The notes under the pieces were generated by a model. The model saw only the letters and a list, made by a program, of their open reading frames with translations, was not told the origin of the DNA and did not search any database. Source: Ignavibacteriaceae bacterium (GTDB lineage: Bacteria > Bacteroidota > Ignavibacteria > Ignavibacteriales > Ignavibacteriaceae). Taken from it: 64,000 nucleotides of DNA. Shown in pieces: positions 14,661 through 18,440 of the stretch. Position numbers and translations under genes: made by a program. Position 1 is the first letter of the stretch; every line of letters begins with the position of its first letter. The stretch lies in NCBI GenBank assembly GCA_013360295.1, contig JABWCL010000001.1:248001-312000 (forward strand). The letters run 5' to 3'.

Positions 14661-16043
14661 TCAAAGCAGTTTTCCGCTTAAAAGCATCAGGGCAACCCCA
14701 AAATAGATAAGAAGGCCTGTGACATCCACAAGTGTCGCCACAAAAGGCGCGGAGGAAGTCGCCGGATCAAACCCGAGTTTCTTCAAAGCCAGAGGGAGGG
14801 CTGAACCAACAAGAGTCCCCAGTGTTACAACTCCTACTAAAGCGAACGATACAGCCAGTCCGATCAGGTACCAGTATTCTCCATAAGCAGCATGAGTCAT
14901 CTGGCCGAACCCAACTCGGACAAAACCGAGCACCGCAAGGATCGAACCGAGTATTAGTCCGGAAAAAAATTCTCTTCTAACCACGAACCACCAGTCAGCC
15001 ACCCTGATTTCGCCAAGAGACAGGGCACGTATCACAAGTGTTGATGCCTGTGAACCCGAATTACCTCCGCTCGCGATGATCAGCGGAACAAACAATGCCA
15101 ACACCACCGCTTTTGCAATTTCGTGTTCAAAAAATCCCATCGCAGTAGCTGTGAACATTTCTCCGATAAAAAGAATACTCAGCCAGCCTGCCCTTTTCTG
15201 CACCATTCCGAAGAGTGAAATCGTCGAATAGGGTTCCTCCAAGGCTTCACTACCGCCAAGTTTCTGGATATCTTCAGTTGCCTCTTCTTCAGCCACATCA
15301 AGTACGTCATCAATCGTAACAATTCCCATCAGAATACCTGTGTTGTCAGTAACCGGCAGCACTGTCCTGTCATAGTCTTTAAAGACCTGCACTGCTGTTT
15401 CCTGGTCATCCGTCGCGATAAGATGGATAAAGTTTCCATCCATCAGTTCGCTCAGTTTTTTATCAAGAGGTGAGAGTAGGATTTCCCTTATCCTGATATC
15501 ATCAATAAGCTTTCCCTTGTCATCCACAATATAAATTACGTTAAGAGTCTCGCTGTCTTTTCCGTACTTCCTGATATTAGCAAGAACATCCTCCACTGTG
15601 AGGTCCTCGCGTATGGAAATATAGTCAGGGGTCATTAGCCTTCCGATCGTGTTTTCCTTGTATCCAAGAAGTTTATTCGCGATAGAGCGCTCATCGGGGG
15701 AAAGCATCATAAGCATCTGTTTGGTTACCGGCGCGGGGAGTTCTTCAAGCAGTGCGGTACGATCATCAGGGGCCATTTCGTTAAGAATTCCAGCTACCTC
15801 TTCTTTCGCAAGAGATTTCATAAGCGATATCTGAACGTCCACATCGAGATACTCAAAGGTATCGGTGGCAATATCTTTAGATAAAAGCCGGAAAACCACC
15901 GCCTGGTCTTTTTCCGAGGGTATGTCAGTGATCAGGTCTGCCAGGTCTGCGGGTGAATAGTCTGACAGAACTTCTCGAAGTGTGGCTAAATTTCTATTTA
16001 CAATGAGATCTTCGATCTCGGGGAATAATAAGTTACCTAACAT
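14661..16043 (-). CDS. mgtE: Magnesium transporter MgtE
   Basis: The 460-residue protein has the MgtE layout: an N-domain of short helical repeats (about 1-130, with ADLADLITDIP and MAPDDRTALLEEL), two CBS domains (about 135-260, ending DVLDVAEEEATEDIQKLGG), a plug helix and five C-terminal membrane segments with the pore sequence PLIIASGGNSGSQASTLVIRAL. The cytosolic domains sense Mg2+ and gate the channel. I looked for an M-box riboswitch in the 160 AT-rich bases before the start and did not find one. Confidence 0.96.
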   Translation of the reverse strand: MLGNLLFPEIEDLIVNRNLATLREVLSDYSPADLADLITDIPSEKDQAVVFRLLSKDIATDTFEYLDVDVQISLMKSLAKEEVAGILNEMAPDDRTALLEELPAPVTKQMLMMLSPDERSIANKLLGYKENTIGRLMTPDYISIREDLTVEDVLANIRKYGKDSETLNVIYIVDDKGKLIDDIRIREILLSPLDKKLSELMDGNFIHLIATDDQETAVQVFKDYDRTVLPVTDNTGILMGIVTIDDVLDVAEEEATEDIQKLGGSEALEEPYSTISLFGMVQKRAGWLSILFIGEMFTATAMGFFEHEIAKAVVLALFVPLIIASGGNSGSQASTLVIRALSLGEIRVADWWFVVRREFFSGLILGSILAVLGFVRVGFGQMTHAAYGEYWYLIGLAVSFALVGVVTLGTLVGSALPLALKKLGFDPATSSAPFVATLVDVTGLLIYFGVALMLLSGKLL

Positions 16044-16151
16044 CCGGAACTCCCTCTATAACGGGATTAAATTTTTACATTGGAACTATTTCAACCAAAT
16101 TTGAATTAAAAAACTATATACTTATAATAATATATTATTTTAATCTGAATT

Positions 16152-16179
16152 TTGAAAATATCAGAAAAAGCATTATATT
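16152..16179 (+). promoter_or_regulatory. Candidate sigma-70-type promoter for tRNA-Lys
   Basis: TTGAAA at 16152-16157 and TATATT at 16174-16179 are 16 bases apart and end 25 bases before the tRNA. The region is AT-rich, so this is a modest match only. Confidence 0.35.
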
Positions 16180-16204
16180 AAAAAGCTAATTTTGAAAATT
16201 TCAA

Positions 16205-16276
16205 GGGCGCGTAGCTCAGGGGTAGAGCATTTGCCTTTTAAGCAAAGGGTCGGTGGTTCGAGCCCACCCGCGCTCA
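16205..16276 (+). tRNA. tRNA-Lys (anticodon TTT)
   Basis: The 72-base sequence folds as a full cloverleaf: acceptor GGGCGCG with CGCGCTC (one G-T pair), D-stem GCTC/GAGC, anticodon stem TTTGC/GCAAA around the loop CTTTTAA with anticodon TTT, and T-stem GGTGG/CCACC with loop TTCGAGC. The discriminator is A and no CCA is encoded. It is followed within three bases by a terminator-like hairpin, and it heads an array in which its sequence is partly duplicated twice. Confidence 0.96.
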
Positions 16277-16278
16277 CA

Positions 16279-16302
16279 AATCCCACGAAGAGTGGGATTT
16301 TT
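16279..16302 (+). terminator. Hairpin with T-run after tRNA-Lys
   Basis: AATCCCAC pairs with GTGGGATT (8 bp) around GAAGA and is followed by TTT. It is the first of three identical copies in the array and probably ends the tRNA transcript. Confidence 0.75.
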
Positions 16303-16326
16303 ACTTTTAAAGTGAAAGAAAGCAAA

Positions 16327-16581
16327 ATGCATTTCGTTTATATTCTCAGAAATCCTCAGGGTAAGCATTACATCGGCGAAACTGAAAACCTTGAGAGAAG
16401 GATTATAGAACACAACAAAGATAACGGCCACTTTACAGGCTTCAATGGTCCTTGGGAAATTATTGTTTCCCATTTTTGTACTGACAGAAGTGAAGCTAGA
16501 AGACTTGAAAGAAAACTTAAAAGTTTCAAGAATCCCGGCTACGCAATCAAGTACTTATCTGAATTGAGGACTCAAGGGTAG
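16327..16581 (+). CDS. Small GIY-YIG nuclease-domain protein, copy 1
   Basis: The 84-residue product is a single GIY-YIG domain: FVYILRN (GIY equivalent), KHYIGET (YIG), the conserved Arg in LERRIIEHN, and the C-terminal glutamate region SEARRLERKLKSF. It resembles the stand-alone GIY-YIG (YhbQ/UvrC-N-like) proteins of unknown role. I chose this ATG because a longer frame starting at 16192 would translate straight through the tRNA. The last codons and the TAG stop lie inside sequence homologous to the tRNA D-arm, so the gene is fused to a tRNA copy. A nuclease role is expected from the motifs; the target is not known. Confidence 0.85.
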   Translation: MHFVYILRNPQGKHYIGETENLERRIIEHNKDNGHFTGFNGPWEIIVSHFCTDRSEARRLERKLKSFKNPGYAIKYLSELRTQG

Positions 16582-16631
16582 AGCATCCCGATTTATCGGG
16601 AGGGTCGGTGGTTCGAGCCCACCCGCGCTCA
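16566..16631 (+). pseudogene. Broken tRNA-Lys copy, first
   Basis: From CTCAAGGGTAGAGCAT onward it follows the intact tRNA: D-arm, GGGTC variable region, complete T-arm and 3' acceptor strand CGCGCTCA. The anticodon arm is replaced by the palindrome TCCCGATTTATCGGGA, which gives a loop of the wrong size and no usable anticodon, and the 5' acceptor strand is lost into GIY-YIG 1. It cannot be a normal tRNA. Confidence 0.88.
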
Positions 16632-16633
16632 CA

Positions 16634-16657
16634 AATCCCACGAAGAGTGGGATTTTT
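16634..16657 (+). terminator. Hairpin with T-run, array copy 2
   Basis: This is an exact copy of the hairpin after tRNA-Lys (8 bp stem, GAAGA loop, T-run). It would terminate a transcript covering GIY-YIG 1. Confidence 0.72.
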
Positions 16658-16681
16658 ACTTTTAAAAAGAAAGTTAGCATA

Positions 16682-16936
16682 ATGCATTTTGTTTATATCC
16701 TTAGAAATTCTCAGGGCAAACATTCCATCGGCGAAACCGAAGACCTCCAGAGAAGGATCGTAGAACACAATAAAGATAATGGCCACTTTACCGGCTTTAA
16801 TGGTCCCTGGGAAATTATTGCATCCCATTCTTGTTCTGACAAAAGTGAAGCCAGAAGACTTGAAAAAAAACTTAAAAGTTTCAAGAATCCCGGCTATGCT
16901 ATCAAGTACTTATCCGAATTGCGTGCTCAGGGATAG
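16682..16936 (+). CDS. Small GIY-YIG nuclease-domain protein, copy 2 (altered YIG motif)
   Basis: The 84-residue product aligns end to end with copy 1 and differs at about a dozen positions. The GIY-equivalent VYI, the Arg in LQRRIVEHN and the SEARRLEKKLKSF region are kept, but the YIG motif reads HSIGE instead of HYIGE: the tyrosine that is normally part of the catalytic site is Ser. The nuclease may therefore be weak or inactive. As in copy 1, the C-terminal LRAQG and the TAG stop are encoded in tRNA D-arm-like sequence. Confidence 0.82.
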   Translation: MHFVYILRNSQGKHSIGETEDLQRRIVEHNKDNGHFTGFNGPWEIIASHSCSDKSEARRLEKKLKSFKNPGYAIKYLSELRAQG

Positions 16937-16986
16937 AGCATCCCGATTTATCGGGAGGGTCGGTGGTTCGAGCCCACCCGCGCTCA
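16921..16986 (+). pseudogene. Broken tRNA-Lys copy, second
   Basis: GCGTGCTCAGGGATAGAGC matches the tRNA from inside the acceptor strand through the D-arm with one deletion and one change. The anticodon arm is again TCCCGATTTATCGGGA, while the T-arm and CGCGCTCA are intact. It ends the array before the shared hairpin. Confidence 0.88.
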
Positions 16987-16988
16987 CA

Positions 16989-17012
16989 AATCCCACGAAG
17001 AGTGGGATTTTT
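16989..17012 (+). terminator. Hairpin with T-run, array copy 3
   Basis: This is the third identical hairpin, closing the array. The stem is symmetric, so it could also act on the convergent alpha-amylase transcript, although the T-run on the minus strand is short. Confidence 0.7.
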
Positions 17013-17066
17013 CATTTTAAAGAAGTTGGATTATATAGCCCCTAACGACTACGTTTATACCTTTGA

Positions 17067-18440
17067 TTATTTCTTCATTATCAGATAAGCGTATTCTGAC
17101 AGTCTGATGGTATCAGTGAAAGTGATCACTTCCCCGGTAAATACATTTGTCCAGGTTGTGTTTGTTAAAGCCGGCGGAACGGAGTATGTAACATTGTAGT
17201 TTCTCGTATTTACCATCGTTAATACCTGCAGTGAATCATACATTTTCCTGAAACAATTAACTTCGCTCCCGGGGAAAGGCTCAAGCATTCCTTTCTTCAA
17301 CGCATCTGATGAATTGTAAAAATTTAATATTCTTTTATACTCAGCCAGCATATCCGGGTTCAGCGACCAGTTGATGGGTGCATTAGAAAAAAATGGAACT
17401 TTCTCAGTCACTCCAACTTCCTGGCTTCCATATACTAAAGGCACGCCCCCCAGATATGCTGCAATAACCGCTGCAGCAAGAGCCCCCTTTTTACCGTTAA
17501 AAATAGTCATTGGAGTTGCATCCCAGGCTGACTCATCGTGGTTGGTGGTAAAGCGGAGTTTTCTCTTTCCTGCCGGCACCTTGCTGTATTCCTGGTTATG
17601 AGTAATAAAAAGATTTGCCGAACTATAGTTATTCCTGAAAACATTTTTCATTGTTCCGTAAAAGTCCCAGCTGAAATTCATCTGGAAACCAGCGGAGAAA
17701 TGATCGCTTCTTGCTCCTTCAGCCAGAAATATTAGCTTCCTCCCTTCCAGGGCGTTTAATTCAGATAATGCTTCAAGCCAGAAATCATTGGGAACATAAT
17801 CCGCTGCATCACACCTGAAACCGTCAATATTTGCATTGGTCACCCACCATTTCATCGCGTCAATCATAGCTCTTCGCATATTCCTGTTATCATAATTCAG
17901 TTCCGCTACATCAGCCCAGTTTGTACCCGGCGGACTTATAATATTTCCGTTTCCGTCCTTTGTATACCAGTTACTGCTGTCCATCCATTTGTTGTCCCAG
18001 GAAGTATGATTCGTGACCCAATCAAGAATCACTGCCATATCTCTTTTGTGTGCGCCTTCCACAAGTTCACGAAGGTCGGTAATCGTTCCATATTCTGAAC
18101 CCACCGAGGTGAAGTCACTTATGCAATATGGTGAGTTGACTGATCTTAACTTTCCAACCGGGTACACAGGCATCACCCACACAACATTCACTCCGAGTGC
18201 TTTAATGGCATCAAGCCTTGCATTCACTCCCCGCAACTTCCCTTCAGCGCTGAAAGCTCGTATGTTGACCTCATACATTATGATATTTTCGGTTGATGGG
18301 ACATTAGCGAATGGCGTACCGGATTCAGCACCGGGAGGGACTGTGGCTGGATTATTCTTATCTTCGCATGAGACGAAGAAAATGGCAGCACAAAAAATCA
18401 GCATCGTTAAAAACAGATCTTCGATTTTTCTCAGTTTCAC
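17067..18440 (-). CDS. Exported alpha-amylase family (GH13) lipoprotein
   Basis: The 457-residue protein begins with a lipoprotein signal: a hydrophobic stretch ending FFVSC, with the Cys near residue 25. The GH13 barrel motifs follow in order: DWVTNHTSW (region I), GFRCDAADYVP with the nucleophile Asp (about 209), FLAEGA with the acid/base Glu (about 238) and FTTNHDES with the third Asp (about 301). The C-terminal beta domain is present. It should cleave or transfer alpha-glucosidic bonds outside the cytoplasm; the exact specificity is not readable. It is monocistronic, bordered by the tRNA array and a long intergenic region. Confidence 0.92.
   Translation of the reverse strand: MKLRKIEDLFLTMLIFCAAIFFVSCEDKNNPATVPPGAESGTPFANVPSTENIIMYEVNIRAFSAEGKLRGVNARLDAIKALGVNVVWVMPVYPVGKLRSVNSPYCISDFTSVGSEYGTITDLRELVEGAHKRDMAVILDWVTNHTSWDNKWMDSSNWYTKDGNGNIISPPGTNWADVAELNYDNRNMRRAMIDAMKWWVTNANIDGFRCDAADYVPNDFWLEALSELNALEGRKLIFLAEGARSDHFSAGFQMNFSWDFYGTMKNVFRNNYSSANLFITHNQEYSKVPAGKRKLRFTTNHDESAWDATPMTIFNGKKGALAAAVIAAYLGGVPLVYGSQEVGVTEKVPFFSNAPINWSLNPDMLAEYKRILNFYNSSDALKKGMLEPFPGSEVNCFRKMYDSLQVLTMVNTRNYNVTYSVPPALTNTTWTNVFTGEVITFTDTIRLSEYAYLIMKK

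Follow-up and report, generated by a model that had tools for sequence, protein, structure and literature searches.

Within the window, by which is meant the whole 64-kb stretch of DNA that was analyzed, an intact tRNA-Lys gene is followed by two units of 355 nucleotides (nt), each composed of a GIY-YIG gene, a broken copy of the tRNA-Lys gene and a terminator-like hairpin, all in the forward orientation; this arrangement, which had been described in an initial annotation, was confirmed using ARAGORN, Rfam, Pfam and repeat analysis. The intact gene (anticodon TTT, positions 16205-16277, called by ARAGORN and matched by Rfam RF00005 tRNA at 69.7 bits) is followed by the first hairpin (16278-16305; fold z -5.53), which looks like the tRNA-Lys gene's own terminator and which recurs at the end of each unit (16633-16660 and 16988-17015), with AAATCCCACGAAGAGTGGGATTT and its following Ts occurring three times in the array. 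Gene A (16327-16581) starts at an internal ATG of a longer frame, encodes 84 amino acids (aa) that include the conserved catalytic residues, and ends inside broken copy A, where the TAG of the D-arm supplies its stop codon. Gene B (16682-16936) also encodes 84 aa, is 87% identical to A, and carries a serine in place of the tyrosine of the YIG motif. Copy A is made up of an inner segment (part of the D-arm, to tRNA nt 26; 16571-16585) and an outer segment that runs from nt 44 to the 3' end and is identical to the intact tRNA (16602-16632); copy B is built in the same manner (16926-16940 and 16957-16987), its inner segment lying inside an ARAGORN call of 'tRNA-???' at 16917-16987. Repeat analysis identified a direct repeat of 300 nt at a spacing of 355 (89% identity), as well as a 67-nt segment present three times at spacings of 355 and 355 (97-100% identity to the reference copy). 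A chance origin of the array was ruled out by this analysis and by the number of palindromes found (two, versus 0.02 expected).

Those palindromes are the main feature of the broken copies, and one that was absent from the initial annotation. In both copies the anticodon arm (nt 27-43) has been exchanged for the 16-nt palindrome TCCCGATTTATCGGGA (16586-16601 in copy A, located by pattern search and boundary analysis, and 16941-16956 in copy B, by pattern search), which is flanked by tRNA-Lys sequence up to nt 26 and again from nt 44, with few differences in the inner part. The pattern TCCCGA-N2..8-TCGGGA occurs nowhere else in the window. The palindrome is identical in the two units even though their genes differ at 21 of 49.7 synonymous sites. 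At nonsynonymous sites the genes differ at 12 of 202.3 (dS 0.62, dN 0.06), and the nuclease is, judging from these substitutions, under purifying selection.

Both proteins match the GIY-YIG family PF01541 (E 1e-17 for A and 7e-15 for B). Across 118 aligned domains, residues Y5, Y15, G17, R25, H29 and E61 are nearly invariant, and the change of Tyr15 to Ser in gene B is the sole change at that residue. An AlphaFold model computed from an alignment of 13 sequences (mean pLDDT 90.0) found as its top Foldseek match the UPF0213 protein BH0048 (E 2.6e-4), the only match below 0.001, followed by Slx1 chains (E 6.2e-3 to 1.1e-2) and by the N-terminal domain of UvrC (E 0.3). The protein is a bare single domain of about 85 aa, with a fold nearest to UPF0213, and leaves no space for a second DNA-binding domain. 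UPF0213 and other stand-alone GIY-YIG proteins (1zg2, 1ywl) resemble the array protein in size, in sequence (E 5.6e-6) and in fold (E 2.6e-4); the solved members are named as hypothetical proteins in structure listings, which contain no mention of tRNA genes.

The genome that contains the window has 42 tRNA matches and six PF01541 matches, of which two are the array genes and one is a stand-alone gene with no tRNA in the surrounding 3.2 kb. The closest named relative is an uncultured Ignavibacterium metagenome-assembled genome (MAG; L011; 81-82% protein identity). Matches to protein A at E 1e-3 were found in 51 of 59 genomes; among 198 genomes from the phylum (presumably GTDB Bacteroidota), 131 had matches to a 15-row profile. 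Both counts include the genome of the window, and nuclease matches were counted whatever their neighborhood. The initial annotation had proposed that stand-alone GIY-YIG genes beside tRNAs may be common in this group and that the tRNA is kept functional; among 92 places in other genomes with a match to protein A down to E 9.7e-8 (80 regions and 12 more), 77 do have an intact tRNA on the same strand within 500 nt of the GIY domain, upstream of it in 58 cases and downstream in 19. In none of the 92 is the nearest tRNA on the opposite strand. One of the remaining 15 has a tRNA within 1000 nt, and 14 are without a tRNA call, eight of these having less than 500 nt of contig on one side. From a figure of about 42 tRNAs in 4.4 Mb, the adjacency expected by chance is estimated to be well below 1%.

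The tRNA-adjacent genes span many isotypes and often occur as tandem units together with a broken copy of the adjoining tRNA; more than one GIY domain is present in 18 of the first 80 loci, and in two of these 18 (L086 and L110) the domains lie on opposite strands. A further 20 regions chosen from the profile matches gave a similar picture: 18 contain a same-strand tRNA, in each case no more than 250 nt from the GIY domain and with isotypes that include Ala, Leu, Pro, Arg, Val, Asp, Met and Ser, and 16 of those 18 have a hairpin of at least 6 bp in the broken copy. At four loci from outside the phylum (L015, L018, L021 and L022, excluded from the 92), tRNAs also lie near small GIY genes, with no clear broken copy visible by eye.

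Two orders of parts are found. At 3'-type loci an intact tRNA is followed by the nuclease gene and then by a 3' part of the tRNA, and at 5'-type loci a 5' part of the tRNA is followed by the nuclease gene and then by the intact tRNA; in four of the latter (L128, L106, L120 and L097, by eye) the tRNA part on the nuclease side stops at the anticodon loop. Relative to 62 downstream broken copies, the nuclease stop codon lies inside the copy in 30 cases and within 15 nt before it in 15 more. The outer end of the copy equals the local tRNA exactly in 29 copies, and of 178 comparisons of these with the same isotype from other genomes only 34 gave a match. Of the 62 downstream copies, 49 do not match the 3' end of the local tRNA exactly over 26 nt, and none matches another genome instead.

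When 30 nt on the nuclease side are included, 77 of 96 distinct broken copies contain a perfect hairpin of at least 6 bp; in 40 rounds of block-shuffling the number averaged 8.8 and never exceeded 15. Because native tRNA arms form hairpins too, this raw count is not clean: in a control using the same test, hairpins at 6, 7 and 8 bp were found in 38, 18 and 3 of 97 intact tRNAs, versus 59, 50 and 26 of 96 copies. Position is thus the better test, and it is the exact exchange of an arm, not the raw hairpin count, that carries the argument. Boundary mapping was used for this purpose, with 93 rows that include some repeats within arrays and six native arms. The interval between nt 26 and 44 (26|44) recurs in copies of tRNA-Lys, Val, Ala, Pro, Ser(tga) and one Met; 49|58 is used in Asp copies, with L229 differing; Asn copies use 37|48 or 24|35; 58|62 is found in other Met copies and in one Asn copy; and palindromes are inserted at 21|22 in Arg and at 14|15 in Leu. 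Scattered boundaries belong mainly to Ser, Cys and several Met copies, together with some from Asn.

A search for the exact 26|44 exchange examined 140 loci (117 of them with a tRNA call) and found, at 26 loci, an insert of at least 12 nt lying between tRNA sequence that breaks off after nt 26 and tRNA sequence that resumes at nt 44. Twenty of the 27 distinct inserts are palindromic over their whole length (stem of at least 6, no more than 2 nt outside), and the other seven were, by reading, two native arms (L088 and L127) and five mixed or imperfect sequences. The letters of the palindrome at the same tRNA position differ between genomes. The top junctions of this search (left 50-55, right 63-68) were rejected as evidence, for they simply contain the native T-loop.

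On a nuclease tree of 118 domains, built from 72 columns and with 58 of its 104 inner branches left open, the tRNA label (isotype and side) changes 41 times, versus a mean of 91.3 after shuffling, and none of 200 shuffles reached so low a value; near-copies inflate this clustering. Nuclease clades, as far as this tree can tell, follow tRNA isotype. One starred set of five contains mixed Val, Met and Lys members, and it is therefore probable that nuclease lineages have switched from one tRNA to a similar one.

The number of matches varies among members of the same genus (16 in G002 versus none in G030; three in the genome of the window, G000, versus none in G001). At the tRNA-Lys gene orthologous to that of the window, downstream of a gene that we take, from its translation, to be MgtE-like, G001 has a 100% identical tRNA followed by a different terminator and no GIY gene; the left flank alone is shared in this comparison, with a relative of the right-hand gene being found on another contig. 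The same locus is empty as well in G008, contains a broken copy and a divergent nuclease with an in-frame stop in G003, and retains palindrome-bearing tRNA scraps without a nuclease in G007. The tRNA-Asp locus carries five nuclease units in G002 and is empty in the congener G030, whose tRNA is identical; here both flanks are conserved (71% and 67% identity), and the distance from the tRNA to the right flank is about 312 nt in G030 versus about 2.6 kb in G002, which corresponds to the array and roughly 1 kb more. No 9-mer of tRNA-Asp was found in the G030 gap. Two additional relics were recognized: G017 has three stops in the nuclease frame and retains a Lys copy whose anticodon arm contains TCCCGATTAATCGGGA, and the genome of the window has, on the minus strand directly upstream of an intact tRNA-Asn, a 5'-type remnant without a nuclease (L254; G000:C72, about 149141-149260) that consists of nt 1-13, TCCCGATGCATCGGGA and approximately nt 28-38. 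The initial annotation had named conservation of the array in all relatives by ordinary vertical inheritance, with neither empty nor other insertion sites, as the observation that would count against its reading; since insertion sites at many other isotypes and orthologous empty sites (tRNA-Lys in G001 and G008, tRNA-Asp in G030) both exist, the relatives do not show that pattern.

The array is probably a selfish, homing-type element of tRNA genes that would spread through nuclease cutting and repair. Comparison of the genomes shows how the loci are built, that palindromes are exchanged at recurring positions, that nuclease clades go with tRNA isotype, that the nuclease is under purifying selection, and that empty sites and relics exist; from these we infer the cutting, the target site, the repair-driven spread and the role of the palindrome. 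The unit would comprise a bare single-domain GIY-YIG endonuclease gene and a duplicated part of its tRNA gene, with one tRNA copy kept intact, allowing the host to survive, and with one arm or loop of the other copy, often exactly the anticodon arm, swapped for a palindrome. The region of the tRNA gene recognized by the nuclease would surround the arm that the duplicate subsequently loses; a break there would be repaired from a cassette-bearing chromosome, by which means the gene would reach empty tRNA loci; the palindrome would render the duplicate uncuttable; and tandem units would arise through recombination between the tRNA repeats. Such a cycle of cutting, repair, tandem growth, decay and loss would explain the empty sites, relics and arrays, and recurring tRNA positions are what one would predict for a palindrome that abolishes the target in the duplicate. 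The proposal of the initial annotation that the nuclease takes the place of an integrase went too far, and this route of cutting and repair fits better. A more general statement is offered with less conviction, as a tentative one: that widespread minimal mobile elements exist in the phylum, in which a bare UPF0213/Slx1-like nuclease gene would invade tRNA genes isotype by isotype and trade one hairpin arm of the tRNA duplicate for the hairpin of a dispersed palindrome, so that the duplicate would be uncuttable and the intact copy would keep the host alive.

The weak point of the homing view lies in the intact tRNA, which does not differ between occupied and empty genomes. The loss of a catalytic tyrosine from gene B also counts against this view, as do the places with no tRNA call, the scattered boundaries of some isotypes and the downstream copies that lack the exact 26-nt match. 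Because the intact tRNA is the same in occupied and empty congeners, at tRNA-Lys and at tRNA-Asp, the donor should be cleavable too, and sequence alone cannot protect it. The distribution of the cassette may reflect either horizontal spread or repeated loss. The family looks like a selfish one whose members enter tRNA genes yet leave them alive, and two marks of a homing gene are found in it: a GIY-YIG domain with catalytic residues, and an empty orthologous allele in relatives (with the left flank only for Lys, and both flanks for Asp).

The closest functional parallel is SegB of phages T4 and T6, a free-standing GIY-YIG homing endonuclease of the tRNA region (PMC13096335; PMC2988022). T6 SegB cleaves within tRNA genes and gives rise to arrays in which tRNA and truncated segB are repeated in tandem (PMC13096335), and the best reading is that the array would work in a similar way. 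Both systems place a GIY-YIG gene beside tRNAs, both contain tandem repeats of tRNA and nuclease, and both raise the question of how a donor avoids cutting itself (PMC13096335). The published T6 motif RAWTSGAAC (PMC13096335) reads GTTCSAWTY on the other strand and by reading corresponds to the tRNA T-loop, where some Met and Asn copies of the present family carry their palindrome (58|62). The array family differs from SegB in residing in bacterial chromosomes instead of phages, in having one domain of about 85 aa, in pairing intact and broken tRNA copies with palindromic exchange of an arm, and in having isotype-linked nuclease clades, whereas no isotype preference is reported for segB (PMC13096335). 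A tblastn search of 50,697 phage records with protein A gave no match at E 1e-3, so that no sequence relation to phage SegB was seen for this protein, and a phage origin was rejected on the same result. The initial annotation knew of no described system. SegB is a close functional parallel; no description of bacterial tRNA-GIY-YIG arrays, or of tRNA copies with an arm exchanged for a palindrome, was found in the titles and opening abstract text of the open-licence PMC papers retrieved. The findings suggest that in much of a bacterial phylum essential tRNA genes have become hosts to a selfish nuclease family that keeps them functional in an unusual manner. They offer a testable case of how a single domain of 85 aa could recognize one tRNA isotype and how hairpins may swap at exact helix borders, and bear on a question raised by phage SegB, namely how an enzyme of this kind spares the locus that encodes it (PMC13096335).

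Hairpin exchange guided by structure deserves to be taken seriously as a rival reading, given that the swap in Lys, Val, Ala and Pro copies respects helix borders and that the same palindromes are dispersed in the genome of the window. Here an Slx1-like, structure-specific nuclease would cut at the bases of extruded hairpins and would mainly move palindromes, with the nuclease gene riding along; a palindrome would take the place of the arm in the tRNA duplicate much as RAYT transposases handle REP-type repeats. REP/RAYT elements provide a precedent, in that dispersed palindromes are tied to a small nuclease gene (the Tyr transposase); the array shares both features with them and differs in encoding only a GIY-YIG protein and in placing the palindrome inside a tRNA copy. 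The TCCCGA..TCGGGA family was found at 27 places in the genome of the window (two being the array), versus none for a reversed control. By eye, eight of 20 palindrome-bearing stretches (L239-L258) lie beside one shared repeat, and in four of the 20 the palindrome sits between CTTCGATA(C/T) and TACTCAG; eight of the 20 show no shared repeat, which counts against the proposal. A stand-alone UPF0213-like GIY gene with no tRNA (L001; G000:C78:38977-39195) lies, by eye, inside a repeat array with CTTCGATAC...TACTCAGCCACC ends on both sides, a palindromic context that would suit hairpin exchange; the slot between CTTCGATA(C/T) and TACTCAG holds a different palindrome there. The Foldseek ranking (UPF0213 first, Slx1 next at E 6.2e-3) and the commonest swap, 26|44, also favor it. 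However, the fold match to Slx1 is weak, Slx1 normally requires Slx4, and other clades swap or insert at positions that are not helix borders (49|58 in Asp, 37|48 in Asn, 21|22 in the D-loop). On balance, we regard hairpin exchange as unlikely.

Still less probable is ordinary local duplication, in which a host GIY-YIG gene near tRNAs would have been inherited vertically and multiplied by unequal crossing-over, with no mobility. Near-identical tandem units in several genomes, and the tracking of the local tRNA by the outer ends of broken copies where these are exact, are what such a process would produce; it is strained by the empty sites and by congeners that have the same tRNA without the cassette, by the strongly variable number of matches among congeners, by nuclease clades that switch among Lys, Val and Met, and by palindromes that occupy one and the same tRNA position but differ in their letters from genome to genome. 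Very improbable, finally, is an RNA-level system in which the nuclease cuts the tRNA or a tRNA-like transcript and the broken copy serves as a decoy or antitoxin RNA, for although clades are isotype-linked and the swap of one stem-loop for another leaves copy B with a cloverleaf-like predicted fold, that of copy A is not a cloverleaf, 5'-type and 3'-type loci duplicate opposite tRNA halves and so have no RNA in common, and we know of no GIY-YIG RNase.

Several other assignments were rejected. Where integrase-type islands and prophages have entered a tRNA gene, an intact tRNA remains together with a broken copy at the end, as in the array; the array unit differs in lacking an integrase, there being no space for one in 355 nt filled by a 255-nt GIY gene, a tRNA copy and a hairpin, and in having a copy that carries a palindrome. 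A mobile group I intron was excluded, given that the tRNA is uninterrupted and that no group I intron is among Rfam matches to E 0.1 in positions 16000-17200; matches to SpF41 and isrB fell below gathering scores and were disregarded. Individual loci show further variation. In a tRNA-Val array of the Ignavibacteriota IGN3 chromosome (L012; CP053447.1, a MAG), the nuclease of the first unit is a C-terminal part only and the last unit has no broken copy after it, and in Ignavibacteriales UBA1304 (L026, by eye) a Met-tRNA 3' fragment and a GIY gene start that is cut off early are followed by sequence that looks like an IS transposase. At two tRNA-Pro loci (L119 and L123), the nuclease ATG immediately follows the called 3' end of the tRNA, and processing of that tRNA would therefore leave a leaderless mRNA.
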